DNA from: Spirosoma lacussanchae | GTDB lineage: Bacteria > Bacteroidota > Bacteroidia > Cytophagales > Spirosomataceae | Length of the DNA stretch: 64,000 nt | Direction: 5' to 3' | Assembly: GCF_005870035.1 (NCBI RefSeq) | Contig: NZ_SWJG01000007.1 | Coordinates: 1 to 64,000 of the forward strand | Shown here: positions 297-15,490 of the stretch, one piece after another | How the letters are laid out: each line of letters begins with the position of its first letter | Position numbering within the stretch: position 1 is the first letter of the stretch | Made by a program: the position numbers and the translations under genes | The notes under the pieces: model-generated | Seen by the model: only the letters and a program-made list of their open reading frames with translations | The model's database searches: none | Told to the model about the DNA's origin: nothing

Positions 297-647
297 ATGG
301 AATTCAATCTAACAGAAAAGCATTTCGCCGAAATCGTACAGAAAGCATGGGACGACGCTGGTTTCAAAAATGCACTAGTAGCAAATCCTGAGAAAACGAT
401 AGAAGACTACACAGGTGTTAAGATGAACCTGCCCTCAGGTTTGTCGTTTGTAGCGGTAGATCAGAGTGATGAATCAAAAATCTACTTCAACATTCCGCGC
501 AAACAAGATGAATCCAGCATCGAACTGACCGACGAACAGCTAGAAATGGTTGCCGGGGGCGATTTTGTAATTGTTCCTGCTGCTGTTGGCTGCGGCATTG
601 CCACAGTTGCTTTGTGCGTCGCAGCTTATGCTATGTTTACTCGATAA
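297..647 (+). CDS. NHLP-type RiPP precursor peptide, copy 1
   Basis: This is a 116-residue precursor made of a long nitrile-hydratase-alpha-like leader (residues 1-88) that ends in the processing motif VAGG, and a 28-residue hydrophobic core (89-116) beginning DFVIVP. The core has Cys99 and Cys107 and ends in FTR. Leaders of this type (NHLP/TIGR03793) are exported by dedicated HlyD plus C39-ABC systems, and exactly that system lies at 7.1-13.5 kb. The core has almost no Ser or Thr, so lanthionine or azoline rings are unlikely; a disulfide or a linear membrane-active peptide is more plausible (inference). The gene is the first of a tandem pair with copy 2. The start at 297 is supported by an AT-rich stretch upstream and by the same start in copy 2. 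Confidence 0.88.
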   Translation: MEFNLTEKHFAEIVQKAWDDAGFKNALVANPEKTIEDYTGVKMNLPSGLSFVAVDQSDESKIYFNIPRKQDESSIELTDEQLEMVAGGDFVIVPAAVGCGIATVALCVAAYAMFTR

Positions 648-682
648 TAAAATATTTATTTAACATCAAATAATTTAACTTT

Positions 683-1033
683 ATGGAATTCAATCTAACA
701 GAAAAGCATTTCGCCGAAATCGTACAGAAAGCATGGGACGACGCTGGTTTTAAAAATGCACTAGTAGCAAATCCTGAGAAAACGATAGAAGACTACACAG
801 GTGTTAAGATGAACCTGCCCTCAGGTTTGTCGTTTGTAGCGGTAGATCAGAGTGATGAATCAAAAATCTACTTCAACATTCCGCGCAAACAAGATGAATC
901 CAGCATCGAACTGACCGACGAACAGCTAGAAATGGTTGCCGGGGGCGATTTTGTAATTGTTCCTGGTGCAGTTGCTTGCGGCATTGCCACAGTTGCTTTG
1001 TGCGTTACAGCATATGCTTTATTCACCCGATAA
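683..1033 (+). CDS. NHLP-type RiPP precursor peptide, copy 2
   Basis: This 116-residue precursor has a leader identical in protein sequence to copy 1, ending in the Gly-Gly site at residues 87-88. By eye, codons 1-94 differ from copy 1 at only one silent base, whereas codons 95-116 carry 11 base changes. The core therefore reads DFVIVPGAVACGIATVALC followed by VTAYALFTR. Both cysteines and the terminal FTR are kept. The pattern points to a recent duplication followed by diversification, or gene conversion, limited to the mature peptide. Only 35 bases separate the copies, so they are probably co-transcribed. Confidence 0.88.
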   Translation: MEFNLTEKHFAEIVQKAWDDAGFKNALVANPEKTIEDYTGVKMNLPSGLSFVAVDQSDESKIYFNIPRKQDESSIELTDEQLEMVAGGDFVIVPGAVACGIATVALCVTAYALFTR

Positions 1034-1072
1034 TGCTTGAGATCTCTTTTTATATAAAACGATATTAAAAAA

Positions 1073-1447
1073 ATGGAAGCAACATTAGAACAAAAAGAAG
1101 TAGGTAAAAAACTATTGAGCAGCTTAGTCACTAAAGCTCAAGACGATAAAGAATTCAGGTATGAGTTGGTCACGAACCCCTATCAGGTACTTGAGAAAAT
1201 AGGATGTCCTGAAAGTAATCTTCCTAAAGATGTAAAAATTAAATTTGAAGATCAGACGGACGAAACTGTTGTATATTTAAATATTCCAAGAAAAGTTGAT
1301 ACTGAAAGTATAGAACTCACTGATGAACAACTGGAATTAGTTGCCGGGGGTGAGTTCCTAGTAAGTTTTGGTATTGGCGTTGGCATTGGTGTTTGCGCAG
1401 TTGGAGTAGCATATGTAGCATCTCATGTTCATATTTCCTGGAATTAA
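1073..1447 (+). CDS. NHLP-type RiPP precursor peptide, divergent third copy
   Basis: This 124-residue precursor shares the leader architecture of copies 1 and 2: a helical N-terminus, an NPxxxLE-like turn, the block IPRKxDxxSIELTDEQLE and a VAGG site at residues 90-93. Overall it is well diverged. The core (94-124, 31 residues) is rich in Gly and Val, with a GIGVGIGVC stretch and a His-rich, Trp-containing tail (SHVHISWN). It has one Cys in the core (Cys108) instead of two, and one in the leader. Its base composition is lower in GC than copies 1 and 2, suggesting an older split. It may work together with the other two as a multi-peptide bacteriocin (inference). Confidence 0.86.
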   Translation: MEATLEQKEVGKKLLSSLVTKAQDDKEFRYELVTNPYQVLEKIGCPESNLPKDVKIKFEDQTDETVVYLNIPRKVDTESIELTDEQLELVAGGEFLVSFGIGVGIGVCAVGVAYVASHVHISWN

Positions 1448-1835
1448 CTGGTAAAACTCGCTTATTAACCAGGTATGTTAAATTAAAGAAGCCGTTTGTG
1501 TTGATTTATTTGATTGCTAAATAAAAATCTGAGGCACAAATATTAATACAAGTGGCTTCTTTTCTCATACTTGAAGAAAAAAAAGTATATTCATTACACC
1601 AAAACTTGTATTTTTATTTAGTATAACAATGATTTGTTTTTTATGTGCATTTTTTATAAGGATTTAAATTTGGATATAACACAGTTTAATAGATTTGTCA
1701 CATTTAATTTAATTGTATTTTTTTATAGGAATAATTATAATGAGGATCTAGATAAGGTATTTAAAATCAACTGAACTCTGTTAATGTTGATTATTTTAGT
1801 GGTCAGTTCATAGTAATATAAAATTTCATTTCAAG
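1448..1835. other. AT-rich gap with a possible terminator hairpin
   Basis: No convincing gene was found here. AAAGAAGCC at 1485-1493 can pair with GGCTTCTTT at 1554-1562, and inside it TTTGTG (1495-1500) with CACAAA (1535-1540). The right arm runs into T-rich sequence, so this may end transcription of the precursor genes. The loop is long, so the call is weak. The rest is very AT-rich sequence without recognised motifs. Confidence 0.35.
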
Positions 1836-2015
1836 ATGGAAAAAAATAAAATAGTTGAACTATCATCATTAACTTTTTTGGGTTTGATCATAGTGTTTCT
1901 AGGTAGTATACTGCCCAGTAGTAATAATCAGCTAAATCTTAGCAAGGTGGTAGTTGGGTTAGGCATATTAATTTTGCTAATCGCAATCTTTTCTTTTTTC
2001 AGGAGACGATCATAA
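1836..2015 (+). CDS. Small two-helix membrane protein, candidate immunity protein
   Basis: This is a 59-codon open frame from the ATG at 1836 to TAA at 2013-2015, starting MEKNKIVELSSLTFLG. It is predicted by eye to hold two transmembrane helices, at about residues 11-26 and 38-55, and it ends in the positive tail RRRS, which would face the cytoplasm. No family is recognised. Small two-helix proteins encoded beside bacteriocin genes are often immunity proteins, and this one sits between the precursors and the oxygenase gene; that role is inference. The strongly hydrophobic, non-random composition and clean start and stop support a real gene, but there is no homology evidence. Confidence 0.5.
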   Translation: MEKNKIVELSSLTFLGLIIVFLGSILPSSNNQLNLSKVVVGLGILILLIAIFSFFRRRS

Positions 2016-2236
2016 CAACATAAATATTCAGGTACATATTACATGCAGTTGTTGTATCATTTTTATCTCAGTAAAATTGTGTCTATATTACTTATAATAA
2101 TTGATCCGCTGTAAATTGTTGCCTGTTTTCAAAACCAACTTGACAATAGCTTTAAGATATACTCATCGCTCAGACGCATACAATAATAAATTATAAGAGT
2201 CAGTATCAGCCAACGATACCTTAAAATAACAACAAT

Positions 2237-3448
2237 ATGAAGACGTATATAGAAGAAAATGTTCAGCTAAAGGATTTCGCAGATTTAATCAGTCCAATTA
2301 ATATTATTGATTTTGAAGCTAATTATTGGGAAAAGCAAGTTGTACATATCAAACGGGATAATCCATCATTTTTTGAATCGTTATTCTCCGTTGAAGTACT
2401 AGATAAGCTTTTAGCCTATAACCGTCCTAGAGGTGGCGGCCTGCGAGTCGTGAAGAGTCAGCAACCACTAAATCCTACTATTTATGAAAATCAGGATGGG
2501 AGTCTAAATTTAAATCAACTTTATGCTGCCTACGCCGATGGCCATACCATAGTTATTAATGAGATTCAACGGTATTGGGACCCGATCAAAATGCTGGTGG
2601 AGAATATTCATCAATATATGAGCCATCATGTGGTGGCAAATCTCTACTTAACTCCTGAAAATGAGAAGGCACTTTCGCCCCATTATGACTCTCATGATGT
2701 ATTCGCTTTACAAATTTCGGGAGAAAAGCACTGGATCGTCTATGACGATACGTATTGTAAAACGCCATTGGTACATAGTTTTCAGCCCGTTTTTCAACGT
2801 GAGCAACTTAGTGGTGCGAAACAGATTACTTTGAAAGCCGGAGATGTTATGTATATGCCACGGGGAGTGCCTCACGAAGCTTATACCACTGATCAGTCGT
2901 CGATGCACATCACCATTGGCGTTCACTCGACACAATGGATCGACTTTATCACGAAATCCTTGGCAAGTCTGGCTCAAAATCATATCGAATTACGCCAGGC
3001 CTTACCCATTGGATTTTTGAATTCTGATAACGAAGATTTATTATCGCCGAATGCTGAATTAAACTTCATTACTATTCTTCAGCAGATCTTTCAAAAAGAC
3101 ACTCTTAACGGTTGCCTGTCAATTCTGCAAGAAGAGTTTCGGACGAAAGAACAGCCAAGACCTGATGGCCACTTCGCTAGCCTGGATAAACTTAATCACA
3201 TTGGACTGGACTCGCTTTTGATCAAACGGGACGGATTAACATCTAAAGTTACTAACCATATTACTGGAGCCCGGATCTCATTCCAGGGCAACGTAGTGAA
3301 AGGTCCTTCTCAGATCGCTCCATCACTGGAGTTTATCTCCCAACAGGAAGGCGCTTTCTGCGTGCGAGAAATTCCTTTCCTGAACGACGAAAACAAACTA
3401 AAAGTGGCAAAACGACTGATTAGAGGTGGATTGCTGAAAGTGGCTTAA
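2237..3448 (+). CDS. JmjC/cupin-4 family Fe(II)/2-oxoglutarate oxygenase, probable peptide hydroxylase
   Basis: This 403-residue protein resembles the bacterial RIOX/ROXA (YcfD/cupin_4) family, which hydroxylates side chains of ribosomal proteins. The double-stranded beta-helix core spans about residues 120-240. A His-x-Asp...His iron triad is visible: His149 and Asp151 in SPHYDSHD, and His213 in MPRGVPHEA. A C-terminal winged-helix-like region follows. Classical family members act on ribosomal proteins, but this gene sits in an AT-rich island directly after three RiPP precursor genes and is the only recognisable modifying enzyme there. Hydroxylation of the exported peptide or its leader is therefore the leading idea (inference). 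A ribosomal substrate remains possible. Confidence 0.82.
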   Translation: MKTYIEENVQLKDFADLISPINIIDFEANYWEKQVVHIKRDNPSFFESLFSVEVLDKLLAYNRPRGGGLRVVKSQQPLNPTIYENQDGSLNLNQLYAAYADGHTIVINEIQRYWDPIKMLVENIHQYMSHHVVANLYLTPENEKALSPHYDSHDVFALQISGEKHWIVYDDTYCKTPLVHSFQPVFQREQLSGAKQITLKAGDVMYMPRGVPHEAYTTDQSSMHITIGVHSTQWIDFITKSLASLAQNHIELRQALPIGFLNSDNEDLLSPNAELNFITILQQIFQKDTLNGCLSILQEEFRTKEQPRPDGHFASLDKLNHIGLDSLLIKRDGLTSKVTNHITGARISFQGNVVKGPSQIAPSLEFISQQEGAFCVREIPFLNDENKLKVAKRLIRGGLLKVA

Positions 3449-3761
3449 TACGGTGGCTAAGAGGCTACGATGATTAACCCAATTTATTGATTTTACTTTC
3501 TGTCATTCCGGCGAAGAAAACATTTTGCCTTCGCCGGAATGACAAACTTACCTATACAAGACTTACAAACTTCTTTTGTTCCTTATACCTAGTCAGTATC
3601 CAAAACGGATTAGGCTAAACTTAACTGACAGACGAAATTGCTCGAAAATATTTGGTAATGTAATAGCTAGTATTCACTAATCTGATACACTGATAATCCC
3701 TAAAAACACTTTACAGAGGTACATGCATAAAGGAATGAATTAGTTTATTATACGTGTCATT
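3449..3761. other. Gap with REP-like inverted repeat
   Basis: No gene is seen. The gap holds a perfect 15-bp inverted repeat, GTCATTCCGGCGAAG (3502-3516) with its complement at 3529-3543, separated by 12 bases. It could end transcription of the oxygenase gene, although there is no T-run. Its GTCATTCCGGCGAA arm resembles repetitive extragenic elements, so it may be a REP copy. The remaining 200 bases are AT-rich and unassigned. Confidence 0.5.
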
Positions 3762-4013
3762 ATGAAAGCTAATACCTATAAAGATAAGAGCACGGAGAGC
3801 CTAAGCAAGCTGGAAAAGACAACTGTAGCAGTAATAGGTCTATTTGCAGGCATACTCACTGTACTGTTTGTTGTAACAATACTACTAACGTTTAAACAAG
3901 GATTTACCACCTTCCTCATCGTTCCCTTCTCCCTGTTGCCGCTACTTGGCTTAAATATGGCTAGTCTGAAAAAAATCAGACAGGAGCTTCGTGCCCGGGA
4001 AACAGTATTTTAA
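3762..4013 (+). CDS. Small membrane protein with two predicted helices
   Basis: This 83-residue protein has a hydrophilic N-terminus (about 1-18), two hydrophobic segments at about 22-44 and 50-67 (around AVIGLFAGILTVLF and FLIVPFSLLPLLG), and a basic cytoplasmic-type tail (KKIRQELRARE). No family is recognised. It stands alone between the oxygenase and the AraC-type regulator of the bacteriocin island. By position it could be a second immunity or accessory membrane protein, but the sequence itself does not show this. Confidence 0.55.
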   Translation: MKANTYKDKSTESLSKLEKTTVAVIGLFAGILTVLFVVTILLTFKQGFTTFLIVPFSLLPLLGLNMASLKKIRQELRARETVF

Positions 4014-4226
4014 AGCGTTCGCTGCAGGGAGTTTTGCTCTGTAGGCTCATCCTGAACGAGGGTACTGAAACCATAAAATAGGACAGTCAGCTATACACTG
4101 GAATGAATTTCGGTGTAATCAATGTTTCGCGCACCACTTACGACGGATTTTGGGCCGACGATTCAGAAGGTGGTCGGTATGGATCGCTGTTCTTGATTTT
4201 TTCTCCCAATAATTATTCTATCAACG

Positions 4227-4880
4227 ATGCATACAGCAAAGAAAAATACCATAGACTGGAATTCGCCTAATGCATTGGAACAACTTGCTCAGCACATCAG
4301 ACACCCTCTGCAGAGTATCATGAATGTGGGCAAAAATAGGGGTACATATGATACGCAGCATATTGAGCAGATTCTTTTTTCCAGTAGTAAAGAAATCAGT
4401 GATATAGTAGAAGATATTCTGACTAAAGCCAGAGCCAATACATTAAGCCTGACCTACCACGACCGCCCGGATATATTTCACATTTATGAATCGAATGAAA
4501 ATGTCAGGAAGATGTGCCAGGGTGAGTTACAACCCCAGAAGATAGCAAAAACAGACCAGGACTGGCTCGTAAACCTGGAGCGGGAGGTATACGGCAACAT
4601 AAGCCAGGAATATTTGGATATTAACGAGTTGTCGTACAAAATGGCAGTCAGTGAACGACAGCTACACCGCAAAGTAGTAAACCTGGTTTTTTTAACTCCT
4701 AATAAATACGTTAGAGTTCTTCGGCTACATAAAGCCCGGCAGTTGATCGAGAGATATGTACAGCAGTCTGTTTCACAAATTGCCTACACGGTTGGCTATA
4801 AAGACGTGCACTACTTTTCAAAGCTTTTTGCAGAACAATATAGCATTTCACCAAAGCAGCTATTGTGCTCGTTTCGGTGA
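4227..4880 (+). CDS. AraC-type transcription regulator with a histidine-kinase-like N-terminal helix pair
   Basis: This 217-residue protein ends in an AraC/XylS DNA-binding domain (about 120-215): a first HTH around LDINELSYKMAVSERQLHR and a second around SVSQIAYTVGYKDVHYFSK, followed by the usual KLFAEQYSISPKQL. The N-terminus (about 13-75) contains LAQHIRHPLQSI, which resembles the H-box of histidine-kinase dimerisation domains, and a second helix IEQILFSSSKEISDIVEDIL. No ATPase or receiver domain is present. It may be a stripped-down relative of the hybrid two-component regulators common in Bacteroidota, using the DHp-like part to dimerise (inference). It is placed to regulate the bacteriocin genes on either side. 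Confidence 0.7.
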   Translation: MHTAKKNTIDWNSPNALEQLAQHIRHPLQSIMNVGKNRGTYDTQHIEQILFSSSKEISDIVEDILTKARANTLSLTYHDRPDIFHIYESNENVRKMCQGELQPQKIAKTDQDWLVNLEREVYGNISQEYLDINELSYKMAVSERQLHRKVVNLVFLTPNKYVRVLRLHKARQLIERYVQQSVSQIAYTVGYKDVHYFSKLFAEQYSISPKQLLCSFR

Positions 4881-5001
4881 ATTTATTGAATGTCGGAGTT
4901 ACATCGTGGCAGATATGACAAGCTTTCTGACGAGATAGTTTGCGTCGAGGATCAGCCATCTTTTCATACACAATAGTCTATTTTATAAATCAATAAATTC
5001 T

Positions 5002-5523
5002 ATGAAACGTGTACTGTATTTCTTAGGCCATCTTAATGATAGAGATGTAGAATGGATGCTTCAGAATGGCAATAAACTGATGCTGGAAACAGGCGATAGG
5101 CTGATCAACAAAGGGCAGGCTATCGACAGTTTGTATATCGTTTTGTCGGGTCAGTTAGCCGTCTGCGCTAATAACAATTTCAACGAGTGCATCGCCAAGC
5201 TCGAAAGCGGGGAGGTAGTGGGGGAAATGTCGTTTCTCGAATCGACTCCGCCGTCGGTTTCGGTCATCGTTACGGCCCCGTCGGTCATCTACCAGATCTC
5301 CCGCGAAAAGATCAATCTACGGCTGTTGACCAACTCCGAATTCAGAGCCAATTTTTATTACGCTCTGGCCCTGTTCCTCTCGAACCGGCTTCGCAAAACC
5401 ACGGATCAACTGGGCTTTGGTAACCCCGATGACGAGGACCTGGTAGACGCGAATGTTCTTGACGGCGTGGCCCAGGCCGGATCGCGCTTCGTCAAGCTGT
5501 TGCATAGATTCTCGGAGGTTTAA
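5002..5523 (+). CDS. Cyclic-nucleotide-binding-like domain protein without a DNA-binding domain
   Basis: This 173-residue protein consists of one cNMP-binding (CRP/PKA-type) beta-barrel fold, about residues 20-135, with the phosphate-cassette-like GEVVGEMSFLE (70-80). The Arg that grips the cyclic phosphate in classical members is replaced: PPSVSV has Ser85 where PRxA is usual. No C-terminal helix-turn-helix follows, so it is unlikely to be a CRP-type transcription factor. It is the first gene of a six-gene operon, with 20 bases to the TolC gene. Cyclic-nucleotide-binding-like domains are known in NHLP-type export systems, so it may gate or dock on the exporter (inference). Confidence 0.72.
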   Translation: MKRVLYFLGHLNDRDVEWMLQNGNKLMLETGDRLINKGQAIDSLYIVLSGQLAVCANNNFNECIAKLESGEVVGEMSFLESTPPSVSVIVTAPSVIYQISREKINLRLLTNSEFRANFYYALALFLSNRLRKTTDQLGFGNPDDEDLVDANVLDGVAQAGSRFVKLLHRFSEV

Positions 5524-5543
5524 CACTGAAAATCTACCGGCAC

Positions 5544-7115
5544 ATGAGACACTGTCTATATGGCATTCTGATAGGCGTAATGGCGCTGACCAGCAACGTA
5601 CGCGCCCAGGTCAGGTGCGACTTACTCGAAATTTCCAGGAAGGCCTTCGATAAGAACCCCACGCTCGTACGGAGTGGACTGGCTATCCGGAGCGCCGAAG
5701 CGGACCTGCAGATTCAACGGAGCACGTTTGACCTCAACTCGTTTTCCGAGTTGCTGTTTCAGAACAACCAATACCGGCTGCCTGGGGCTGATCCCCGAAA
5801 CGCCCTGCTGGAGAACAGCATCTTACGAAACAACGCGCTGAATCTGTCGGGGGGGCTACGTAAACGGCTGCGGACCGGCCAGTTGACCGAGTTTAGTCTC
5901 AACTACGGATTTGCTAACAACAATTATCCGGTCAACAGCTTCAACCAGCCCATTGGTCTTTACCTGGGCAACAACACCAGCACGATCAATTTCTCGCTGA
6001 CCCAACCGTTGCTTCGGGGCAAAGGACGAGTCATTACCACTGCCCTGGAGCGGGCTAATTCCCTCTATGTGCTGAATGCAAAGAGTGGTAATGAGTATAC
6101 GACCTCGTACGAGATCTGGCAAATCGGGCTGGCCTACTGGAACTACTATACCGCGTTCAAGAGCCTGGAAATCTACAAGCAGAGCGAAAACCGGATTCGG
6201 AATGTGCTGGCGGTAACAGAAGAGCTGGTAAAAGGCGATAAAAAACCGGCTGGCGACCTGATACAGGTCAAGTCGGACCTGGCCAACCAGGAGAAGCTGA
6301 CCATCATGGCTCAGCAGGATCTGTATAGCGCCAGAATACAGCTAGGTAAAGTAATCGGTCTAAGTACGGAAGAAAGCCTGTTGATCGACGTTCCCGAGAA
6401 TGACTTCCCGACCATTGCCGAATCAGCGTTCAAAAAAGGGTTCGACAAAGCTGATTATATCCGGATTGCCAAAGAACGACGCGCCGATCTGATGGCCGCC
6501 CGGCATGGTCATGAGGCTCTGCAGCAGCAGTTTATACTGGCCCAGAACAACACAAAACCTCAGCTCGACCTGACCGGGTTTCTGGCCTACGGGAGCGCCA
6601 GTACGGGCAACCGGATGGGTGATGTGATGGCAGCCTTCTCGAACAACGAAGGCCGCAACATCGGAACCGGCGCCAGACTAACCTTCACCTTTCCGGTCAA
6701 TAACAACTGGGCGAGAGGAAGCCTGGCCAAAAGCCAAATGGCCCTCAGCGATCAGAACGTAGTGGTCAATAATATTCAGCGAGTAATTGAGCTGGACGTC
6801 AATAACGACCTGAACTACCTCGATAACAGCGTTATAAATCTCCAGAAGGCCGAAGAGGTCCTCAACTACACGCAGGACGTATTCAAAGACGAGCAGGTCA
6901 AATTCCAGTCGGGCCTGACCACCATCCTGAGTCTGATCCTGTTTCAGGAGCGGCTTACGGCTGCTCAGCTTCGGTATCTGCAGGCTTACCAGCAATTTGC
7001 CCGAGCCATCATCAACCTCAGACACGACACCGGAACACTCGTAGCCCCCGATAACAAAGGCTTTGTGATCGACAGAAACGCATTTTATACCATCCCTGAT
7101 ACAAACAACAACTAA
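5544..7115 (+). CDS. TolC-family outer-membrane efflux protein of the bacteriocin exporter
   Basis: This 523-residue protein has an N-terminal signal peptide (about 1-21, hydrophobic LYGILIGVMALTS ending in VRA) followed by the repeated long coiled-coil segments of outer-membrane efflux proteins. The motif NFSLTQPLLRGKG and a C-terminal KFQSGLTTILSLILFQERL block are typical. It would form the outer-membrane and periplasmic channel of a type I secretion route. It lies 4 bases from the HlyD-like adaptor and upstream of two ABC exporters, so peptide export across both membranes is the most likely role. The length is in the usual range. Confidence 0.88.
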   Translation: MRHCLYGILIGVMALTSNVRAQVRCDLLEISRKAFDKNPTLVRSGLAIRSAEADLQIQRSTFDLNSFSELLFQNNQYRLPGADPRNALLENSILRNNALNLSGGLRKRLRTGQLTEFSLNYGFANNNYPVNSFNQPIGLYLGNNTSTINFSLTQPLLRGKGRVITTALERANSLYVLNAKSGNEYTTSYEIWQIGLAYWNYYTAFKSLEIYKQSENRIRNVLAVTEELVKGDKKPAGDLIQVKSDLANQEKLTIMAQQDLYSARIQLGKVIGLSTEESLLIDVPENDFPTIAESAFKKGFDKADYIRIAKERRADLMAARHGHEALQQQFILAQNNTKPQLDLTGFLAYGSASTGNRMGDVMAAFSNNEGRNIGTGARLTFTFPVNNNWARGSLAKSQMALSDQNVVVNNIQRVIELDVNNDLNYLDNSVINLQKAEEVLNYTQDVFKDEQVKFQSGLTTILSLILFQERLTAAQLRYLQAYQQFARAIINLRHDTGTLVAPDNKGFVIDRNAFYTIPDTNNN

Positions 7116-7119
7116 CGTC

Positions 7120-8382
7120 ATGGCAGCAGGATTTTTTAGACAGTCAGCCTTGGAAAAGCTGTCGACCCCCGAGAAGCTCGATCAATTGATAAAAGTGACC
7201 AGCCCCAAGGCCTGGATTACGCTGTCGGTGGTGTTTGCCGCGCTCGCTACGGGTATTGGCTGGTCGGTTTTCGGGCGGGTCAGTACCAAACTGAACGTAA
7301 CCGGGGTGGTGCTGGGTGGCGAAGTGCACGAAGTCGTAGCCACCTCGCAGGGGCAACTGGTAAAACTGCAGGTCCGGATCGGTGATAAAGTACAGAAGGG
7401 GGCCGTCATCGCCACGGTGCAGCAGCCGGAGCTGGTTCAACAGATCGAAAACGCCAAAGCCACCCTGTCGGAGCGCAACTACGAACTGACCAAACTAATC
7501 TCGTATGGTAACAAAGGCACCCTGCTGGAAGGGGAGCTGATGAGCCAGAACCGGGTTAGTATTCAGGGCGAAATTGAAGCCGAGAAAAAGAAGCTGGCTT
7601 TTCTGGCTAACCAGCTCGAGTCGGAGGTGGGCCTGTTCGAAAAAGGGTTGATCGTGAAAGCGCAGGTAGCCGGCACCAAACAACAGATCGATGCGTCGAA
7701 GAACACCATCGAGCGGCTGAAAGTGCAGCTGGCCGAAGTCTCTAACCGGCAGCACGACGCGGGCTATTCGCTGCAGCAACGCGTGGCGACCCAGAAGCAG
7801 CAGATTGCCGAGGCCGAGCGGAGCCTTCAGTTCCTGACCGAGCGCTACGATACGCAGTCGAACATCAAAAGCCCCTACGATGGCGAAGTGGTTGAAGTAC
7901 TCACCGACGCGGGTGTGATGGTTGGGCCGGGTACCCCGCTGTTCAAGCTGAAAAACCAGAAAGAAGGCCAGCTGGCCAGCCTGAAGGGGGTTCTTTACAT
8001 TCCGTCGCAGGATGGCAAGAAGATCAAACGCGACATGGAAGCGTTTGTGGTGCCATCGACTGTGCAGCCGCAGGAGTACGGGTTCATCAAAGGCAAGGTT
8101 ACTTACGTGTCGGACTTCCCAATCACCCAGCAGGGCATGATGACCTCGGTTAAGAACGACCAGCTGGCCAAAGGCTTGTTATCCATGGGTCCGCTCTTCG
8201 AAGTCCATGTCGTTTTTGAGAAAGACAATGAGTCGTACAGTGGCTTCAAATGGACGTCGGCCAAAGGACCGGACATCGCTATCAAGGAAGGAACTTCCTG
8301 CATGGGTCAGATTACCGTAAAGCAGGAGAACCCGATTGCGATCGTTGTGCCGGCATTTAAGAAATTCTTCAATCTATACTGA
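7120..8382 (+). CDS. HlyD-type periplasmic adaptor of NHLP bacteriocin secretion system
   Basis: This 420-residue membrane-fusion protein has a short cytoplasmic N-terminus, one transmembrane helix at about 31-50 (AWITLSVVFAALATGIGWSV), a biotinyl-lipoyl-like half near 65-105, a long coiled-coil hairpin (about 110-235), the second lipoyl half (around SPYDGEVVEVLTDAGVMV) and a beta-barrel C-terminus. It matches the NHLM/NHLP bacteriocin secretion adaptor family (TIGR03794-type) in order and length. It would link the inner-membrane ABC exporters downstream to the TolC protein upstream; spacing is 4 and 14 bases. Confidence 0.9.
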   Translation: MAAGFFRQSALEKLSTPEKLDQLIKVTSPKAWITLSVVFAALATGIGWSVFGRVSTKLNVTGVVLGGEVHEVVATSQGQLVKLQVRIGDKVQKGAVIATVQQPELVQQIENAKATLSERNYELTKLISYGNKGTLLEGELMSQNRVSIQGEIEAEKKKLAFLANQLESEVGLFEKGLIVKAQVAGTKQQIDASKNTIERLKVQLAEVSNRQHDAGYSLQQRVATQKQQIAEAERSLQFLTERYDTQSNIKSPYDGEVVEVLTDAGVMVGPGTPLFKLKNQKEGQLASLKGVLYIPSQDGKKIKRDMEAFVVPSTVQPQEYGFIKGKVTYVSDFPITQQGMMTSVKNDQLAKGLLSMGPLFEVHVVFEKDNESYSGFKWTSAKGPDIAIKEGTSCMGQITVKQENPIAIVVPAFKKFFNLY

Positions 8383-8396
8383 TACCGATTTTCGAG

Positions 8397-10589
8397 ATGG
8401 CAACCAATACAACTTTTCCCATTGGGAAACAGGCGCGGCCTGTTAAGGTGCCCACCGTTCTGCAGATGGAGAGTGTGGAGTGTGGCGCAGCTGCTTTGAG
8501 CATTATTTTGGGCCATTTCGGCAAATTTGTACCCCTCGAAAAGTTGCGGATTGCCTGTGGCGTATCCCGAGATGGCCTCAAAGCAACCAATATCATCAAG
8601 GCCGCCCGCGAGTTTGGGCTAGATGCCAAAGGCTACGCCAAGTCGGTCGAGAAGCTGATGCAGGTCGAAATGCCGGCCATCATCTTCTGGAACTTCAACC
8701 ACTTTCTGGTGCTGGAGGGCTTCTCAAAAGACAAAGTCTACCTCAGCGATCCGGCTCAGGGGCGGTACGCGGTTACCTACGACGAGTTCGACGAAGCCTA
8801 TACCGGCGTGGTGCTTACGTTTAAGCCGAACGAACGCTTCGAAAAAGGCAACGAAAAACGGGGGCTGGCTGCGTCGCTGGCTTCCCGGATCTCCAACTCG
8901 AAGCTGAGTATCACCTACATTCTGCTGGCGAGCCTGTTTCTGGTCATTCCCGGTCTGGTGATTCCGTCGTTCATCAAAGTATTTATCGACAAATACCTGG
9001 TCAACGGCCATGCCGACTTTGTAATGCCCCTGCTGCTGATCATGGGCGGGGTACTAGCGATCAACGGGGTTCTGGTGTACCTCCAGCAGTATTACCTACT
9101 GAAGCTGGAAACCAAACTTGCCCTGACTACCTCCAGTAAATTCCTCTGGCACGTTTTTCACCTGCCTATTTCGTTTTTCACGCAGCGATACAGCGGGGAG
9201 ATCGGTAACCGGGTTTCGCTCAACGACAAAGTGGCCCGGCTACTCAGTGGCGATCTGGCCAACGCGGCTCTGAACGTCATTATCGTGATTTTCTACGCCT
9301 TTCTGATGTTTTCGTATGACGTACCGCTGACCCTGATCGGCATTTTCATGGCGGGGCTGAACGTGGTGGCGCTGCGGTATGTATCCAGAGCCCGGAAAGA
9401 CGGAAGCCGTACGTTAAGCAACGAAACGGGCAAGTTGCTCGGAACCACCACCTCGGGCATCAGCATGATCGAAACGCTGAAAGCATCGGGTCGCGAAAAC
9501 GACTTCTTCACGAACTGGATTGGCTACCTGGCCAAGGTGATGAATTCGCAGCAGCAACTAGGCTGGCTCACCACCCGGCTCAACGTGCTGCCCCCGCTGA
9601 TTACGTCGCTGACCACCACATTCATCCTGGGGCTGGGGGCGTTGCGGATTATGGACGGCGAAATGACGCTCGGCGCGCTGGTATCGTTCACCTATCTGAT
9701 GGGTAACTTCATTGGGCCCGTAAACCAGCTTATTGCCGTCGGAACGATGCTGCACGAAACGGAGAGCGACATGGGCCGCATCGACGACGTGTTGAACTAC
9801 GAGCTGGACGAGCAGTTCAGGCCGGGCGCTGGTGCGGCTGAGACCCAGCCAGATGGCATTCATACCAAGCTGACCGGTTATTTCGAGCTGAAAAACGTCA
9901 CGTTCGGGTATAACACAACCATGGCCCCGCTCATCGAAAACTTCAGCCTGAAAGTGAAGCCCGGTAGCCGGGTGGCGCTGGTGGGTGGATCGGGGAGTGG
10001 CAAATCGACCGTGGCTAAAATCGCGTCCGGTTTATACCCGATCTGGAGCGGTGAGGTGTTGTTCGATGGTAAACCGAAAAATACAATTCCGCGGCATATC
10101 ATCACCAATTCTCTGGCCGTCATCGATCAGGAGGTGCTGGTCTTCAACGGGACCGTGAAAGAAAATATCAGCTTCTGGGATTCGGCCATTACCGACAAAC
10201 ACATCATTCAGTCGGCCCGCGACGCAGCTATTCACGATATCATATCGGTCCGGAAAGACGGCTACGACAGCGCCGTTTCAGAAGGCGGAACCAACTTCAG
10301 TGGCGGGCAGCGGCAACGGCTCGAAATAGCGCGGGCCCTGGCTACCAACCCCTCTATCCTGATCATGGACGAAGCCACCAGCGCGCTTGATCCTACGGCC
10401 GAAAAGATCGTCATGGATAACATTAAAAAGCGGGGTTGTACCTGCCTGATCGTGGCGCACCGGCTCAGCACCATCATCGACTGCGATGAGATTATTGTGA
10501 TGGAATATGGCAAAGTAGTAGAGCGGGGCACCCATCAGGAGCTGATCAAGAAAAATGGAGTATACGCCCACCTGATCGAAACGAAATAA
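8397..10589 (+). CDS. NHLP bacteriocin exporter: C39 peptidase/permease/ATPase
   Basis: This 730-residue protein cleaves Gly-Gly leaders and exports the peptide. The N-terminal C39 peptidase (about 15-135) has the catalytic set Gln23, Cys29 (QMESVECG), His102 (NFNHFLVLEG) and Asp118 (LSDPAQG). Six transmembrane segments follow (about 165-440), then a nucleotide-binding domain with Walker A GGSGSGKST near 530, signature FSGGQRQRL near 634 and Walker B ILIMDEATSALD near 652. The domain order matches TIGR03796. Its natural substrates here are the VAGG-ending precursors at 0.3-1.4 kb and perhaps the SGG peptide at 14.8 kb. All catalytic residues are present, so it should be active. Confidence 0.93.
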   Translation: MATNTTFPIGKQARPVKVPTVLQMESVECGAAALSIILGHFGKFVPLEKLRIACGVSRDGLKATNIIKAAREFGLDAKGYAKSVEKLMQVEMPAIIFWNFNHFLVLEGFSKDKVYLSDPAQGRYAVTYDEFDEAYTGVVLTFKPNERFEKGNEKRGLAASLASRISNSKLSITYILLASLFLVIPGLVIPSFIKVFIDKYLVNGHADFVMPLLLIMGGVLAINGVLVYLQQYYLLKLETKLALTTSSKFLWHVFHLPISFFTQRYSGEIGNRVSLNDKVARLLSGDLANAALNVIIVIFYAFLMFSYDVPLTLIGIFMAGLNVVALRYVSRARKDGSRTLSNETGKLLGTTTSGISMIETLKASGRENDFFTNWIGYLAKVMNSQQQLGWLTTRLNVLPPLITSLTTTFILGLGALRIMDGEMTLGALVSFTYLMGNFIGPVNQLIAVGTMLHETESDMGRIDDVLNYELDEQFRPGAGAAETQPDGIHTKLTGYFELKNVTFGYNTTMAPLIENFSLKVKPGSRVALVGGSGSGKSTVAKIASGLYPIWSGEVLFDGKPKNTIPRHIITNSLAVIDQEVLVFNGTVKENISFWDSAITDKHIIQSARDAAIHDIISVRKDGYDSAVSEGGTNFSGGQRQRLEIARALATNPSILIMDEATSALDPTAEKIVMDNIKKRGCTCLIVAHRLSTIIDCDEIIVMEYGKVVERGTHQELIKKNGVYAHLIETK

Positions 10590-10609
10590 ACGATACTACA
10601 TCTATATCT

Positions 10610-13525
10610 ATGTCAGCTATAAAAGAAAAACTATATATCTATGCCGAGAACCCGCTGGTGCTCGATAGCTCAGACCGGTTCTGGCTGGTGCTCTCCGGGG
10701 AGGTAAACGTTTTCTATACGAGAATCGATGAAGAGGGAAACTATACCAATCGACTAAAATTTCTGTATTCGGCCAAGAAAGGGGAAGTATTATTCAGCCT
10801 GTTAGCCCCCGAGGCTGCCGACACCACCCGCCTTATTGCGTTCTCGGCCGAGGCTACCTTACTCGCCATTGACAAAGCCGACCTGCTCAACGTCGATCAT
10901 TTCTTCCTGAAGAACATGATCGATAAATGGATCATAAAAACGTCTTCCGAGGTCAGCACTCTCAACGCACCCAGGGTCTATAAACCACTCGATGAGTACC
11001 AGGAAGTACCGCTGGAAGCCAACACCATGGCGTTCCCGTCTACGGGCATCAGCTGGATTCAGTTGCTGCGGGGCGAGGTCAGTCTGTTTGCCCAGACTAC
11101 AGAGGTGAGTTACGCACAGTACCCTGATTTTCTGGCGCCGACCTCCAATAAGCTGTGGATCAAATCATTGACGGATAACACCGCCGTACGCGTACTGAGC
11201 ACCCGCGAGATGCTCCTGCAGGAAGAGGTTTATTTTCTGCTGGCCCTGAGCAAGCTCGAAGCCTATTTCTACGCTCAGATCAATCAGATCATAGATGCGC
11301 AGCAGGTAGAAGAAATTACGTACCTGTCCGAAAAGCGGGTTACTGACCAGTTGGCTCTGGAAACGACCCTGGGCAAAATTAAGTCGGTCGTGGCGGGCAA
11401 CGGCAGCGGGCAGGGACCGGAGGTGACGGGCAAACGAAACCAGCAGAACCTTCTTTTTCAAACGTGTCAGCTCATCGGGAACCAGATCGGCTTTTCGCTG
11501 GAAGCCCCCAAATACGTTGAGTCGCACCAGAATAATGTCACGAATCAGCTTCATCTGATTGCCAAAAGCTCGAAGCTGCGCATCCGTAAAATCATTCTCC
11601 GGGACACCTGGTGGAAGGAAGAATGCGGGCCGTTGCTGGCGTTTACCAAAAAAGACAAAACCCCCGTTGCGCTCCTGCAGAAAACGCCCACCAGCTACCT
11701 GATCAGAGACCTGTCGACGGGTCAGGAAGCCGTTGTTAACCACGAGATTGCGCAGTCACTGGAACCCATCAGCTACATGTTTTTTCCGGGCTTCGATGGC
11801 AAAATGAGTTCCGTAAAAAAGGTACTCGCGTTTGCAGTCAAAGGCGTGGAAAAAGACGCAAAATGGCTGATGCTATCGGCTCTGGCGGGTAGTGTGATTG
11901 GGTTGCTGGTGCCGGTACTGTCGGGTACCATGTATGATGAGGTGGTGCCGACGGCGGATCGGTCGCTACACCTGGAGGTCTTTGTCATCCTGGTTATGAT
12001 TGCTTTGGTAAAGGCTGGTCTGCAGTTGGTTTCGGGCGCGCTGCAGCTACGGGTCGAATCGAAGTCGAGTATCAACTTACAGGCCGGCATGATGGATCAT
12101 ATGCTTCGCTTGCCAGTGACGTTTTATAAGAAATATACCGCTGGCGATCTGACCAACCGGGTACTGAGCGTCAATACCATCCGGCAAATCGTGTCCAGTA
12201 CCCTGATGACCGCCGTGTTGAGCGGGGCCTTTTCGTCGGTTAACCTGTTCCTGCTGTTCTACTACGACGCCAGCCTGGCCTGGGTGGGCGTTGGACTGGG
12301 TTTGCTGGCGGCTGCGTTTATGGTGACCATAGGCTGGCTCAAGCTGAAATACGACCGACAGGTATCGACCTACCAGGGCGAAATTCAGGGCTTTCTCTTC
12401 GAGTTTCTGTCGGGAATCACCAAAATTCGGATAACGGGTGGCGAACGGCGCGTCTTTGCGCTGTGGGCCGATAAGTTTTCGACCCTGAAGAAGCTAGGCT
12501 TCAACTCGGGCACCTACCAGAATTTTGTCGAAGTCTTCAATGCGTCGTACCCGCTGCTGACCAATATTTTCTTTTTCTCTTTTCTCTATTACACCGTCTC
12601 GAATGCCAATGCCGCAACGGGCATGCTGTCGGTAGGGGTGTTTATGGCCTTCATCACCTCCTTCAATCAGTTTCTGAACGACAGCCTGCGGCTAAGCATG
12701 GCAATGATTACGTCGCTGAATGTGGTTACGCTCTATGAACGGGTGAAGCCCATTTTGGAGGCAGAAACGGAGTCGGTCGATCAGAGTGTCGACCCCGGCG
12801 AGCTGGCGGGTGAGATCGAAGTGAACTCGGTTTCGTTCCGCTACCGCGACGATCAGCCGCTGGTTCTCAACAACGTTACCTTCAAGATAAAACCCGGCGA
12901 GATGGTCGCTTTTGTGGGCGCTTCGGGTTCGGGCAAGTCGACTATTATGCGGCTGCTGCTGGGCTTCGAGCAGGCCGAAGCGGGCTCTGTCTATTACGAT
13001 GGCAACTCGTTTGAGCTGATGAACAAAGAACTGGTTCGCCGGCAGATCGGGGTGGTGCTGCAAAACGGGGCGCTGATGTCGGGCAGTATTTTCCAGAACA
13101 TCATCGGCAACTCCGAACTTACCCTCGACGATGCCTGGGAAGCGGCCCGGATGGCGGGTATGGAAGAAGACATCAAGCACATGCCGATGGAAATGCATAC
13201 CGTCGTGAGCGAAGGCGCCGGTACGTTCTCGGGCGGGCAGCGGCAACGGCTTATGATTGCCCGGGCTATTGTTCATAAACCCCGACTGCTCTTTATGGAC
13301 GAAGCCACCAGCGCGCTCGACAACCGGACGCAGAGCCTGGTGTCGCAGAGTCTGGATAAACTCCAGGCCACCCGGATTATCATTGCTCACCGGCTGAGTA
13401 CGATCAAAAATGCCGATCGCATTTACGTCCTCGACAAGGGCACCATCGTTGAGTCCGGCACCTATGACGAACTCATGGAGAAAGACTCGCTATTTGCCCA
13501 GCTGGCTAAACGTCAAATCGCCTGA
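10610..13525 (+). CDS. NHLP bacteriocin exporter: second ABC permease/ATPase with regulatory-like N-terminus
   Basis: This 971-residue protein matches the second exporter family of NHLP systems (TIGR03797-type). The first 390 or so residues hold no peptidase; instead they have beta-rich segments resembling cyclic-nucleotide-binding folds (LSGEVNVFYTRI, LLRGEVSLFAQT) and a C39-like remnant region (about 310-390, TPTSYLIRDLSTGQEAVVN). The transmembrane part spans about 410-720 and the ATPase has Walker A GASGSGKST near 768, FSGGQRQRL near 872 and LLFMDEATSALD near 893. It probably pairs with the upstream C39-ABC protein as a heterodimer (inference). It follows that gene by 20 bases. Confidence 0.9.
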   Translation: MSAIKEKLYIYAENPLVLDSSDRFWLVLSGEVNVFYTRIDEEGNYTNRLKFLYSAKKGEVLFSLLAPEAADTTRLIAFSAEATLLAIDKADLLNVDHFFLKNMIDKWIIKTSSEVSTLNAPRVYKPLDEYQEVPLEANTMAFPSTGISWIQLLRGEVSLFAQTTEVSYAQYPDFLAPTSNKLWIKSLTDNTAVRVLSTREMLLQEEVYFLLALSKLEAYFYAQINQIIDAQQVEEITYLSEKRVTDQLALETTLGKIKSVVAGNGSGQGPEVTGKRNQQNLLFQTCQLIGNQIGFSLEAPKYVESHQNNVTNQLHLIAKSSKLRIRKIILRDTWWKEECGPLLAFTKKDKTPVALLQKTPTSYLIRDLSTGQEAVVNHEIAQSLEPISYMFFPGFDGKMSSVKKVLAFAVKGVEKDAKWLMLSALAGSVIGLLVPVLSGTMYDEVVPTADRSLHLEVFVILVMIALVKAGLQLVSGALQLRVESKSSINLQAGMMDHMLRLPVTFYKKYTAGDLTNRVLSVNTIRQIVSSTLMTAVLSGAFSSVNLFLLFYYDASLAWVGVGLGLLAAAFMVTIGWLKLKYDRQVSTYQGEIQGFLFEFLSGITKIRITGGERRVFALWADKFSTLKKLGFNSGTYQNFVEVFNASYPLLTNIFFFSFLYYTVSNANAATGMLSVGVFMAFITSFNQFLNDSLRLSMAMITSLNVVTLYERVKPILEAETESVDQSVDPGELAGEIEVNSVSFRYRDDQPLVLNNVTFKIKPGEMVAFVGASGSGKSTIMRLLLGFEQAEAGSVYYDGNSFELMNKELVRRQIGVVLQNGALMSGSIFQNIIGNSELTLDDAWEAARMAGMEEDIKHMPMEMHTVVSEGAGTFSGGQRQRLMIARAIVHKPRLLFMDEATSALDNRTQSLVSQSLDKLQATRIIIAHRLSTIKNADRIYVLDKGTIVESGTYDELMEKDSLFAQLAKRQIA

Positions 13526-13528
13526 TCC

Positions 13529-14665
13529 ATGACAGCGCCCTCGCCGAACCGGCTCCTGCGTAACAGCCACATCGCGTTGCCGGATGAGCTGGAAGCCTAT
13601 CTCCAGAACAACTTTAGCGGTAAAGAAATCAGCCACGAACCGGTTGCCGTCGACGAGCCATACGGGGCTGTCTGGGCCGCGCATCTGGCCAGCCAGGGCA
13701 ACGTATTTCAGCTCCTGCAAGCATGCTACCCCCAGCTCAACTTCCCGATACAGGACGGCATCAACAAAACGCAGGCGTATATAGATACCGTTCTGAAAGG
13801 GAAGCCCTGTACCGCCGGGTATACGCCTGTACTGAGCCAGCCCGAACGCCTTCGCCTGCACGTGCACACCAGCCTTGCCGGTAATGTGCCAGTGCTGATC
13901 GTTCCGGATCATGGGGATTTTGTCAGGCTTGTTCAGTGCTTTCTGCATAAAAACAACCCGATGCCGGTTCCGGCGTCGATGGGGGCTTCGCTGTTGAATG
14001 GCCTCAATAACTGGGAGCGCATCCATGCGCTGAAGAGAAGCTGGCTCCGTACCAACCCGGCCGAAACCTGGACTCAGGAGTTCTCGAAAAACGTGCTGCC
14101 CAATCCAGGCCTGTACAAGGACAAGCTGATTCTGCTCAGCACAAAGCCGTACAGCAACGTACCCGCCGATCGGCTGGGCCTTACCGAAGCGGCTTGGGCA
14201 GCCTACTCGCTTTCGATACGGCTTGAGCATGAGTGCACGCATCTCTATACCCTCCGCCGGTTCGGCTGTGCCACCAATAACCTGCACGACGAACTCATTG
14301 CCGATTACATGGGCATCAGCAAAGCCCTCGGTACATATCGCAAAGACTGGATGCTGGCGTTCATGGGGCTGGAGGCCTATCCGGCCTACCGAAAAGGCGC
14401 CCGACTGGAAAACTACCTGGGCGATACCAACCTGACACCCGAGGGGTTCAGCCAGCTAACTGCGATCATCAAACAGGCTATTGAGTCGATTGCCCGATTT
14501 GATACGGCACTGGGACCGATCCGGTCGGCGCAGGACCAGATGTGCCGGATGGATGCGCTCTGTACTACAGACTTGATAAACATTGCTTCGGTGAAAGGCG
14601 CAAACACCCTGTTGCAAACGTATCAGGAATTGGCTGAGGTTATGAAGTATAACCAAAATGACTGA
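13529..14665 (+). CDS. DUF7005-like protein with HExxH metal-binding motif
   Basis: This 378-residue protein starts 3 bases after the exporter gene and is the last gene of the operon. It has no signal peptide or clear membrane helix. The region RLEHECTHLYTLRRFG carries His234-Glu235-x-x-His238, and the following HDELIADYMG supplies Glu255 and Asp259. Together they look like a gluzincin-type zinc site. From memory it resembles an uncharacterised family found beside NHLP exporters (DUF7005); that label is recollection, not a search. It could be a peptidase that trims the leader or core, or a non-peptidase metalloenzyme acting on the peptide (inference). Confidence 0.7.
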   Translation: MTAPSPNRLLRNSHIALPDELEAYLQNNFSGKEISHEPVAVDEPYGAVWAAHLASQGNVFQLLQACYPQLNFPIQDGINKTQAYIDTVLKGKPCTAGYTPVLSQPERLRLHVHTSLAGNVPVLIVPDHGDFVRLVQCFLHKNNPMPVPASMGASLLNGLNNWERIHALKRSWLRTNPAETWTQEFSKNVLPNPGLYKDKLILLSTKPYSNVPADRLGLTEAAWAAYSLSIRLEHECTHLYTLRRFGCATNNLHDELIADYMGISKALGTYRKDWMLAFMGLEAYPAYRKGARLENYLGDTNLTPEGFSQLTAIIKQAIESIARFDTALGPIRSAQDQMCRMDALCTTDLINIASVKGANTLLQTYQELAEVMKYNQND

Positions 14666-14757
14666 ACTACAACCACTTATTATAGCTTTTCGGGTGCTAT
14701 CCAAAGACCTTTGAATCGAAATAAATCAACTATAACCTAGTAATCTACGTAGTAATC

Positions 14758-14994
14758 ATGGAAAAACCAATCAACGACAAGATTAACGACCTGCGCAACG
14801 AAGCCGCCAATCAGGAAGAACTGATGAAGTCGCTGGCACAAATTGACGAAGAAGGCCAACTGTCTGACGACGTACTGGATGCCGTAAGTGGCGGTGCGCT
14901 GTCGGGAGGCAAATTCATTATTGGCGAGCCTATCGGTCTTATGCCCATTGGTATTACGCCCATCGGTATCATGCCGCTCAATGAGCCTCAATAA
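14758..14994 (+). CDS. Small Gly-Gly leader peptide with PIG-repeat core, putative RiPP precursor
   Basis: This 78-residue peptide has an acidic helical leader ending LSDDVLDAVSGG (residues 35-46), the usual shape of a C39-cleaved double-glycine leader. A second Gly-Gly lies at 50-51. The C-terminus (about 56-74) is built from PIG-type steps: EPIGLMPIGITPIGIMPL, with no Cys, Ser or ring-forming residue apart from one Thr. Its leader is unrelated to the NHLP type at the left end. It lies 92 bases after the exporter operon and ends just before a strong hairpin at 15031-15077. It is probably exported by the same system. No family is recognised. Confidence 0.75.
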   Translation: MEKPINDKINDLRNEAANQEELMKSLAQIDEEGQLSDDVLDAVSGGALSGGKFIIGEPIGLMPIGITPIGIMPLNEPQ

Positions 14995-15030
14995 GCCGCA
15001 CCCTGGCTCAATCACACATTATAACTAACA

Positions 15031-15077
15031 CCAGATCGGGCACCAGCCGGAACGGATTTCGCTGGTGCCTGATCTGG
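15031..15077 (+). terminator. Strong hairpin terminator after PIG peptide gene
   Basis: CCAGATCGGGCACCAGC at 15031-15047 pairs with GCTGGTGCCTGATCTGG at 15061-15077 (one mismatch), followed by TTTGT. It closes the bacteriocin operon. It also shows that a GTG at 15065 inside the stem is not a sensible start for the next gene. Confidence 0.75.
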
Positions 15078-15097
15078 TTTGTCACTCACTCGGATCT

Positions 15098-15490
15098 ATG
15101 GCATCTCTTCTCTGCCCCAGCTCAATCGCGAAGCCCGGTGCTAAACTCTTCGGTATCCAGAATGCATCGGGCCACGTTGAATATCTCGACGAGCCGATTA
15201 CTGTCGATAAGACATTTGTAGAAACCGCGCGGCAGGGGCGCGCGCCCGAAGAGCGGTTTCGGTTCGCCACCAACTGCATCAAAACTGGCTGCGGCCACTG
15301 GACCGGCGAAGCCACGGGCTGCGGGCTGGTGAACAAGATTGTCGATGGCATGAACCGAAACGCCGAGGCCACGCTGGTGGCCTGCCCCATTCGCGACCGC
15401 TGCCGCTGGTATCACCAGCAGGGAGCAACGGCCTGCGCCAGTTGTGACGAAGTGGTTCGAAATGTTCGGGTAGCGGCTGTGCTGGCCTGA
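15098..15490 (+). CDS. Eight-cysteine protein of unknown function beside the NHLP operon
   Basis: This 130-residue soluble protein starts MASLLCPSS. The ATG at 15098 is preferred over an in-frame GTG at 15065 that lies inside the preceding hairpin. The eight Cys are at 6, 60, 65, 75, 96, 102, 113 and 116, in the blocks NCIKTGCGHWTG, TGCG, ACPIRDRCRWYH and ACASC. The spacing suggests two metal or Fe-S sites, or a disulfide-rich fold; with no signal peptide, metal binding is more likely. It resembles uncharacterised proteins I recall near cyanobacterial NHLP clusters (memory, not a search). A maturation or redox role in peptide modification is inference. Confidence 0.6.
   Translation: MASLLCPSSIAKPGAKLFGIQNASGHVEYLDEPITVDKTFVETARQGRAPEERFRFATNCIKTGCGHWTGEATGCGLVNKIVDGMNRNAEATLVACPIRDRCRWYHQQGATACASCDEVVRNVRVAAVLA

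Follow-up and report, generated by a model that had tools for sequence, protein, structure and literature searches.

The window analysed here, bases 1-64,000 of contig C21 in the 6.33 Mb, 23-contig genome of Spirosoma lacussanchae (G000), holds, judging by its gene families, most of a modular locus for ribosomally synthesised and post-translationally modified peptides (RiPPs) whose precursors carry a nitrile hydratase leader peptide (NHLP; proteusin-type). A JmjC_2 oxygenase and NHLP precursors lie in a slot that, as alignments of close relatives indicate, is exchanged as a block between constant flanks, and an acidic first core residue goes together with the oxygenase. Block exchange of the slot and this correlation together make it most likely that the JmjC protein oxidises the precursors of its own cassette, and we put the probability that it modifies them at about 0.72. 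The cassette, regulator and exporter genes of the window are these:

297..647, + strand: NHLP precursor 1, core DFVIVPAAVGCGIATVALCVAAYAMFTR (TIGR03793 58.2 bits, cut-off 50.9)
683..1033, + strand: NHLP precursor 2, core DFVIVPGAVACGIATVALCVTAYALFTR (above the TIGR03793 cut-off in a whole-genome search)
1073..1447, + strand: NHLP precursor 3, core EFLVSFGIGVGIGVCAVGVAYVASHVHISWN (TIGR03793 59.9 bits)
2237..3448, + strand: JmjC_2 oxygenase, candidate modifying enzyme of the cassette (PF08007 96.4 bits, cut-off 22)
4227..4880, + strand: AraC-type regulator, chassis (PF12833)
5002..5523, + strand: cyclic-nucleotide-binding protein, chassis (PF00027; TIGR03896 112.1 bits, under the cut-off of 161.05)
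5544..7115, + strand: TolC-like outer membrane protein, chassis (TIGR01844 E 1.1e-8, under the cut-off)
7120..8382, + strand: NHLP-type HlyD (TIGR03794 299.2 bits, cut-off 156.2)
8397..10589, + strand: C39-peptidase ABC (ATP-binding cassette) exporter (TIGR03796 1046.9 bits, cut-off 853.3)
10610..13525, + strand: second NHLP ABC transporter (TIGR03797 861.5 bits, cut-off 709.4)
13529..14665, + strand: DUF7005 HExxH protein, exporter companion (PF22541 440 bits)

The first-pass annotation, made from the letters alone, had proposed three NHLP precursors, an NHLP-type exporter, an HExxH protein and a JmjC oxygenase with a complete H149/D151/H213 iron triad, and all four proposals hold: the precursors and the three exporter proteins score above the cut-offs of their families, the HExxH protein belongs to DUF7005, and the triad positions of the window protein are indeed H, D and H. 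Precursors 1 and 2 are near-copies (339/351 bases identical), and the window cores are hydrophobic and Gly-rich, with 28-31 residues. A Gly-Gly (GG) site together with a TIGR03793 score above the cut-off is found in the three window precursors and in two further ones on contig C7 of the same genome. The stated absence of YcaO and radical SAM enzymes stands in part, in that neither occurs among the window genes scanned, no genome-wide search for either having been made. The same holds for methyltransferases like those of polytheonamide, which, like a radical SAM epimerase, the leader family does not require.

Twenty loci from 20 genomes were compared, with slot families assigned by hmmscan of representatives and the remaining members by BLAST to those (G, C and L numbers denote genomes, contigs and fetched stretches). 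All 20/20 loci have AraC, a cyclase (on C7 in the own genome) and an NHLP array. The full exporter was seen in 13/20; for the other seven, all Flavobacterium, the stretches fetched covered just the slot side. The slot, defined as the stretch between the NHLP array and AraC, differs in content among the loci. JmjC is present in six of them (G000, G192, G558, G836, G527 and G309); it is the slot enzyme in G000, G192, G558 and G836, and G527 also has DUF4135, a LanM-type dehydratase domain and a known kind of RiPP modifier. DUF4135 is found in 12 of the 14 loci lacking JmjC (G020, G013, G193, G496, G242, G720, G907, G993, G620, G938, G699 and G791; in G193 it was detected by tblastn), with or without a glycosyltransferase, methyltransferase or C39-VKOR protein, and the other two slots hold glycosyltransferases alone (G562) or a glycosyltransferase and a LanC-like protein (G075; 19.4 bits, under the cut-off of 23.2). 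Left out of the counts were six of 14 Flavobacterium stretches (L075, L078-L082) showing no NHLP chassis genes where inspected, six genomes in which slot and array were not readable (G162, G437, G468, G530, G592 and G604), and, in G013, a precursor without GG and a precursor fragment at the stretch border.

Two pairs of close relatives with different slot enzymes delimit the exchanged block at the DNA level. Specifically, the window genome and G020, which has DUF4135, match at 92.4% identity as far as L006:10976, next to a precursor's leader/core junction at 10977, and identity resumes at 92.5% from window position 4212, 15 bases before the AraC start. Likewise, G836 (JmjC) and G993 (DUF4135) are 94.8% identical up to position 5459 of the G836 stretch and 95.3% identical from position 11426, where a constant precursor gene ends. 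Inside the slots of both pairs only short stretches align, at about 65-77% and mainly at NHLP genes.

The JmjC gene is supported as tied to NHLP peptides by where its relatives lie. Close orthologues (at least 54.6% identity to the window protein) occur in 1/36 genomes of the genus, 2/222 of the family, 4/395 of a phylum sample and 2/314 of Flavobacterium; these samples overlap and give six genomes in total, one of them Flavobacterium limicola DSM 15094. All six orthologues lie inside NHLP loci that share the AraC, cyclic-nucleotide-binding, TolC, exporter and DUF7005 genes, and all six aligned orthologues keep the H149/D151/H213 triad. The co-occurrence that the first-pass annotation had proposed to look for is thus found, and the wide occurrence without NHLP genes in this genus that it had named as fatal to the idea is not, because the only matching genome of the 36 is the window's own and the six orthologues are all in NHLP loci. 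The window protein and its G192 orthologue are 78.9% identical (73.7% at the DNA level), and from this comparison JmjC looks like a maintained gene. A structure model built from two sequences was unusable, with a predicted local distance difference test (pLDDT) score of 34.8.

The precursor cores differ with the slot enzyme at their first residue. Taking the last two precursors of each array, with array limits set by hand, the first core residue is Asp or Glu in 12/12 cases for the six JmjC loci vs 0/28 for the 14 others, and G527, which combines JmjC with DUF4135, obeys the JmjC rule. The contrast weakens when all 113 precursor rows are counted (16/40 in JmjC loci vs 10/73 in others), because constant precursor types with an acidic first residue occur in both groups. 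Selecting cores by hydrophobicity instead, with a cut-off of 1.6 chosen after the cores had been seen, gives 12/15 acidic cores in JmjC loci vs 0/13 in others; other cut-offs give 12/16 vs 0/14 (1.2 and 1.4), 11/14 vs 0/9 (1.8) and 11/11 vs 0/4 (2.0). In a leader tree of 30 rows (the cores over 1.6 plus two added by name), the acidic label needs 6-8 changes, and since at least two of these are forced by supported branches, single descent of one leader type fails to explain it.

We propose that the chassis would handle NHLP leaders, the C39-ABC protein cutting after Gly-Gly during export and HlyD, the second ABC transporter and TolC exporting the peptide, and that an exchangeable cassette, situated between the constant precursor genes and AraC, would bring its own precursors together with their modifying enzyme, which would act on the cores of that cassette with the NHLP leader as guide. 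In the JmjC cassette, the hydrophobic, helix-like cores would be hydroxylated before cleavage and export, and the product may act on membranes. The acidic residue 1 is the best single candidate for the hydroxylation site, a choice that we make tentatively. In its fullest form, which as a whole we consider rather doubtful, the proposal describes a Bacteroidota RiPP cassette system in which recombination into an NHLP export chassis, with one breakpoint at the leader/core junction, would swap in new cores and a modifier, and a MINA/NO66-like oxygenase would hydroxylate Asp/Glu 1 of helical membrane peptides.

Several observations weigh against oxidation of the cassette's own precursors or against the importance of their first residue. 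The last-two choice was set after the data had been seen, and the contrast counted by locus (6/6 JmjC vs 0/14 others) gives a Fisher p of 2.6e-5 that is optimistic because the loci are related. Of 100 other cores, 13 likewise start with an acid and are of recurring types that do not depend on the slot enzyme, and Asn, Thr and Tyr each occur in at least one acid-starting core of every JmjC locus, leaving other sites possible. In the leader tree the acidic label is clustered (15/500 shuffles give as low a value), and support is weak for most inner branches, 18/26 of them being open. The G309 locus has its JmjC gene flanked by AraC and a split LanB, with the exporter separating it from the NHLP array. 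Additionally, weaker JmjC homologues without NHLP neighbours exist: among the five outside the orthologue group (G488, G480, G466, G496:C2 and G138; 42 to 164 bits), only that of G496:C2 adjoins an NHLP-like gene, and the stretches around those of G488, G480 and G466 gave no NHLP match. Finally, JmjC_2 relatives with solved structures have ribosomal-protein targets by their deposited names.

The foremost rival to hydroxylation of the acidic residue is oxidation inside the core, at Val, Ile or Leu or at Asn, Thr or Tyr, in the manner of PoyI, with acid 1 serving only for recognition or processing. PoyI hydroxylates Val and Asn in the NHLP peptide polytheonamide (PMC9505594, PMC10373908, in the parts available), and the residues shared by all 13 acid-starting cores (window core 1 and the final pair of every JmjC array) are A, G, I, L and V and no others. 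Against this, position 1 is the only one of the first 12 core positions to hold one residue class in 13/13 of these cores, and it changes with the slot enzyme; we regard oxidation inside the core as possible and on the whole doubtful.

A different rival has the precursors exported unmodified, like bacteriocins, with JmjC acting on a ribosomal or immunity protein and merely carried in the cassette. The cores are indeed short, hydrophobic and Gly-rich, and precursor 1 weakly matches the class IIb bacteriocin model TIGR03949 (E 5.7e-4, under the cut-off). The best solved relatives in a JmjC profile search are MINA53 (E 4.4e-32) and NO66 (E 1.9e-25), named histidyl-hydroxylases, the bacterial L16 arginine hydroxylase being far more distant (E 2.8e-6). 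However, a housekeeping role predicts a wider spread than the rare and patchy one counted above, and the cores change along with the enzyme, which makes this rival unlikely.

The remaining alternative involves a gene outside the window. Window base 1 is base 1 of C21, and window bases 1-120 match six places in the own genome, self included; on the minus strand, bases 1-70 resemble what we take to be the start of an IS3-type transposase gene, and copies of this repeat account for the contig break. The end of C7 carries two NHLP precursors, a TPR-cyclase, a small GG peptide and a LanB with both dehydratase domains (PF04738 533.9 bits, PF14028 215.8 bits). In G020, of the same genus, a single contig bears LanB, GG peptide, cyclase, NHLP array, slot, AraC, exporter, DUF7005, GG peptide and 8-Cys protein, and the own-genome pieces C7 and C21 align to it at 92.4% and 92.5% DNA identity, respectively. 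We infer from this synteny that C7 and C21 adjoin; because the two ends bear different repeats, adjacency as an established fact was rejected. By the same synteny LanB probably belongs to the locus, and the apparent lack of a lanthipeptide synthetase, which the first-pass annotation had reported, is probably an assembly effect, since the window starts at a repeat-bearing contig end and the LanB of C7 falls in the same locus of G020; absence of lanthipeptide enzymes was accordingly dropped as a defining trait. A reading in which LanB is the main enzyme, yielding a dehydrated peptide, and JmjC adds a minor tailoring step has in its favour the two-domain LanB beside two NHLP precursors on C7 and in the same locus of G020, but is improbable, given that LanB is found in only 7/20 loci within the stretches fetched (G000, G020, G013, G193, G192, G309 and G496), with and without JmjC, that in G000 and G020 it adjoins the small GG peptide gene, and that the own genome (0/1) has no match to LanC (PF05147).

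Beyond the cassette and exporter, the locus includes four small genes, all on the + strand:

1836..2015, + strand: small hydrophobic open reading frame of 59 residues (open reading frame only)
3762..4013, + strand: small membrane-protein open reading frame, orf83 (homologues at 74% in the G013 and 36% in the G193 locus)
14758..14994, + strand: second peptide of GG type, containing PIG repeats (four other family loci have homologues following DUF7005)
15098..15490, + strand: 8-Cys protein, 130 residues from the ATG at 15098 (homologues in the same four loci as the PIG-repeat GG peptide)

The 59-residue product is possibly an immunity or membrane protein, and orf83 possibly an immunity protein. 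The GG peptide matches no family in the Pfam or NCBIfam scans and the 8-Cys protein has no Pfam match; the two (window 14758-15490) stand together after DUF7005 in five loci of the window's family and were not seen there in the Flavobacterium-side loci inspected. The eight cysteines of the latter had been noted correctly, its start being better read at ATG 15098, as in its relatives.

DUF7005 follows the second ABC gene directly in 16 of the 20 DUF7005 places with neighbours seen, whatever the slot enzyme, and in one set of 16 Flavobacterium places that side was covered for three; the exceptions among the 20 are G530, G468:C262, G604 and G592, in the last of which an exporter lies about 3 kilobases away. 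In an alignment of 15 members the HExxH motif, E255 and D259 (ExxxD) are invariant, HExxH with a downstream glutamate being the pattern of gluzincin-type metallopeptidases. A profile search of the PDB found no solved relative (best E 0.41), the structure model was unusable (pLDDT 38.6), and no RiPP HEXXH model of NCBIfam matched, the only match being an unrelated weak one (E 0.016). The 2-oxoglutarate HEXXH RiPP hydroxylase family IPR026337 is presumably TIGR04267. DUF7005 may be an exporter-linked metallopeptidase or helper. The HExxH and Cys-rich proteins had been joined to the oxygenase in the first-pass annotation; this partnership was rejected, since both belong to the chassis and are found alongside other slot enzymes too. 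A viral-contig search and PADLOC gave no lead.

Further observations concern the surroundings of the slot and the more distant JmjC_2 proteins. A constant precursor (L006:10350-10679 and relatives) has a similar core across loci (e.g. GHQIWGNFVVSLFPNLKDCITI) irrespective of the slot enzyme, and is perhaps a signal or shared partner peptide. Flavobacterium loci have a precursor upstream of the cyclase (L061:13066-13404, L069:11827-12153, L070:5476-5802 and others) with a near-constant core starting DGD(I/V)TPP or similar. A zinc-ribbon-like protein of ~245 residues (start MTKKCLSCNS or similar), possibly an immunity protein, adjoins the slot with JmjC or with DUF4135 (L027:11247-11984, L055:14713-15453, L065:525-1265, L071:6295-7035, L072:6305-7042). 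In G309, a GG peptide with seven consecutive Asp in its core (L053:19433-19606) lies a few kilobases from the split LanB and JmjC. In G496:C2 (L064:6349-10077), two weak JmjC_2 proteins, a 93-residue NHLP-leader-like protein without GG and a DUF4135 protein stand in a row. In G138:C1 (L089:5160-10287), a JmjC_2 protein, 31% identical, stands beside Asn-synthase, HPr-kinase-like and weak sulfotransferase-like genes, a region that is possibly another peptide cluster with JmjC.

JmjC hydroxylases acting on RiPPs and oxygenase-modified NHLP peptides are already published, and hydroxylation of a hydrophobic RiPP core is therefore less unusual than had been supposed, PoyI, EreI, BipG and PbsQ being in print; what follows refers to the available parts of the cited sources. 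Haft et al. 2010 (PMC2887384) described NHLP precursors and their exporter and proposed mix-and-match of biosynthesis and export genes. The present locus shares with that account the NHLP leader with its Gly-Gly site and the three exporter families, and differs in the DNA-level exchange between fixed flanks, the JmjC_2 modifier and DUF7005 beside the exporter. The oxygenases PoyI, EreI and PhaI act on NHLP peptides, and PoyF is a stand-alone LanM dehydratase domain (PMC9505594, PMC10373908); the polytheonamide and pythonamide proteusins (PoyI, EreI) resemble our system in NHLP leader, hydrophobic Val-rich core and Fe/2-oxoglutarate hydroxylase (here predicted), but not in bacterial hosts, chassis or acid-starting cores. 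The JmjC-type BipG, BpmG and PbsQ hydroxylate ornithine in a RiPP, biphenomycin (PMC12707348, PMC12257519). They are, like the predicted role of the window protein, JmjC or cupin-like 2-oxoglutarate oxygenases with a RiPP precursor as substrate; they act on ornithine within a short aromatic motif, whereas the present cores have no such residue in common, and no NHLP leader is named in those parts of the two papers. The 2-oxoglutarate HEXXH hydroxylases ChlH, BpmH, PflC and PosC are known in RiPPs (PMC12636437); like them, DUF7005 is an HExxH protein inside a RiPP locus, and unlike them it has no RiPP HEXXH model match in NCBIfam and comes after an exporter gene irrespective of the slot enzyme. 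MINA53 and NO66 are by name eukaryotic ribosomal oxygenases, whereas the JmjC protein here is bacterial. The literature search, outside which most subscription journals lay, returned no paper on NHLP with Bacteroidetes and JmjC, on NHLP with Flavobacterium, or on DUF7005.

Taken together, the same export locus with different slot enzymes in close relatives constitutes a set of natural swap experiments, and combining enzyme, precursors and chassis anew in a laboratory host could reveal the action of each modifier. Through the comparison a JmjC_2 subfamily becomes linked to RiPP precursors, and DUF7005, as yet uncharacterised, emerges as a companion of the NHLP exporter. The acidic first core residue supplies a sequence rule for the JmjC substrate that can be tested. 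If this residue were indeed the site of hydroxylation, the exported peptide would have a hydroxy-acid residue at its N-terminus, a kind of chemistry that the literature compared did not show.

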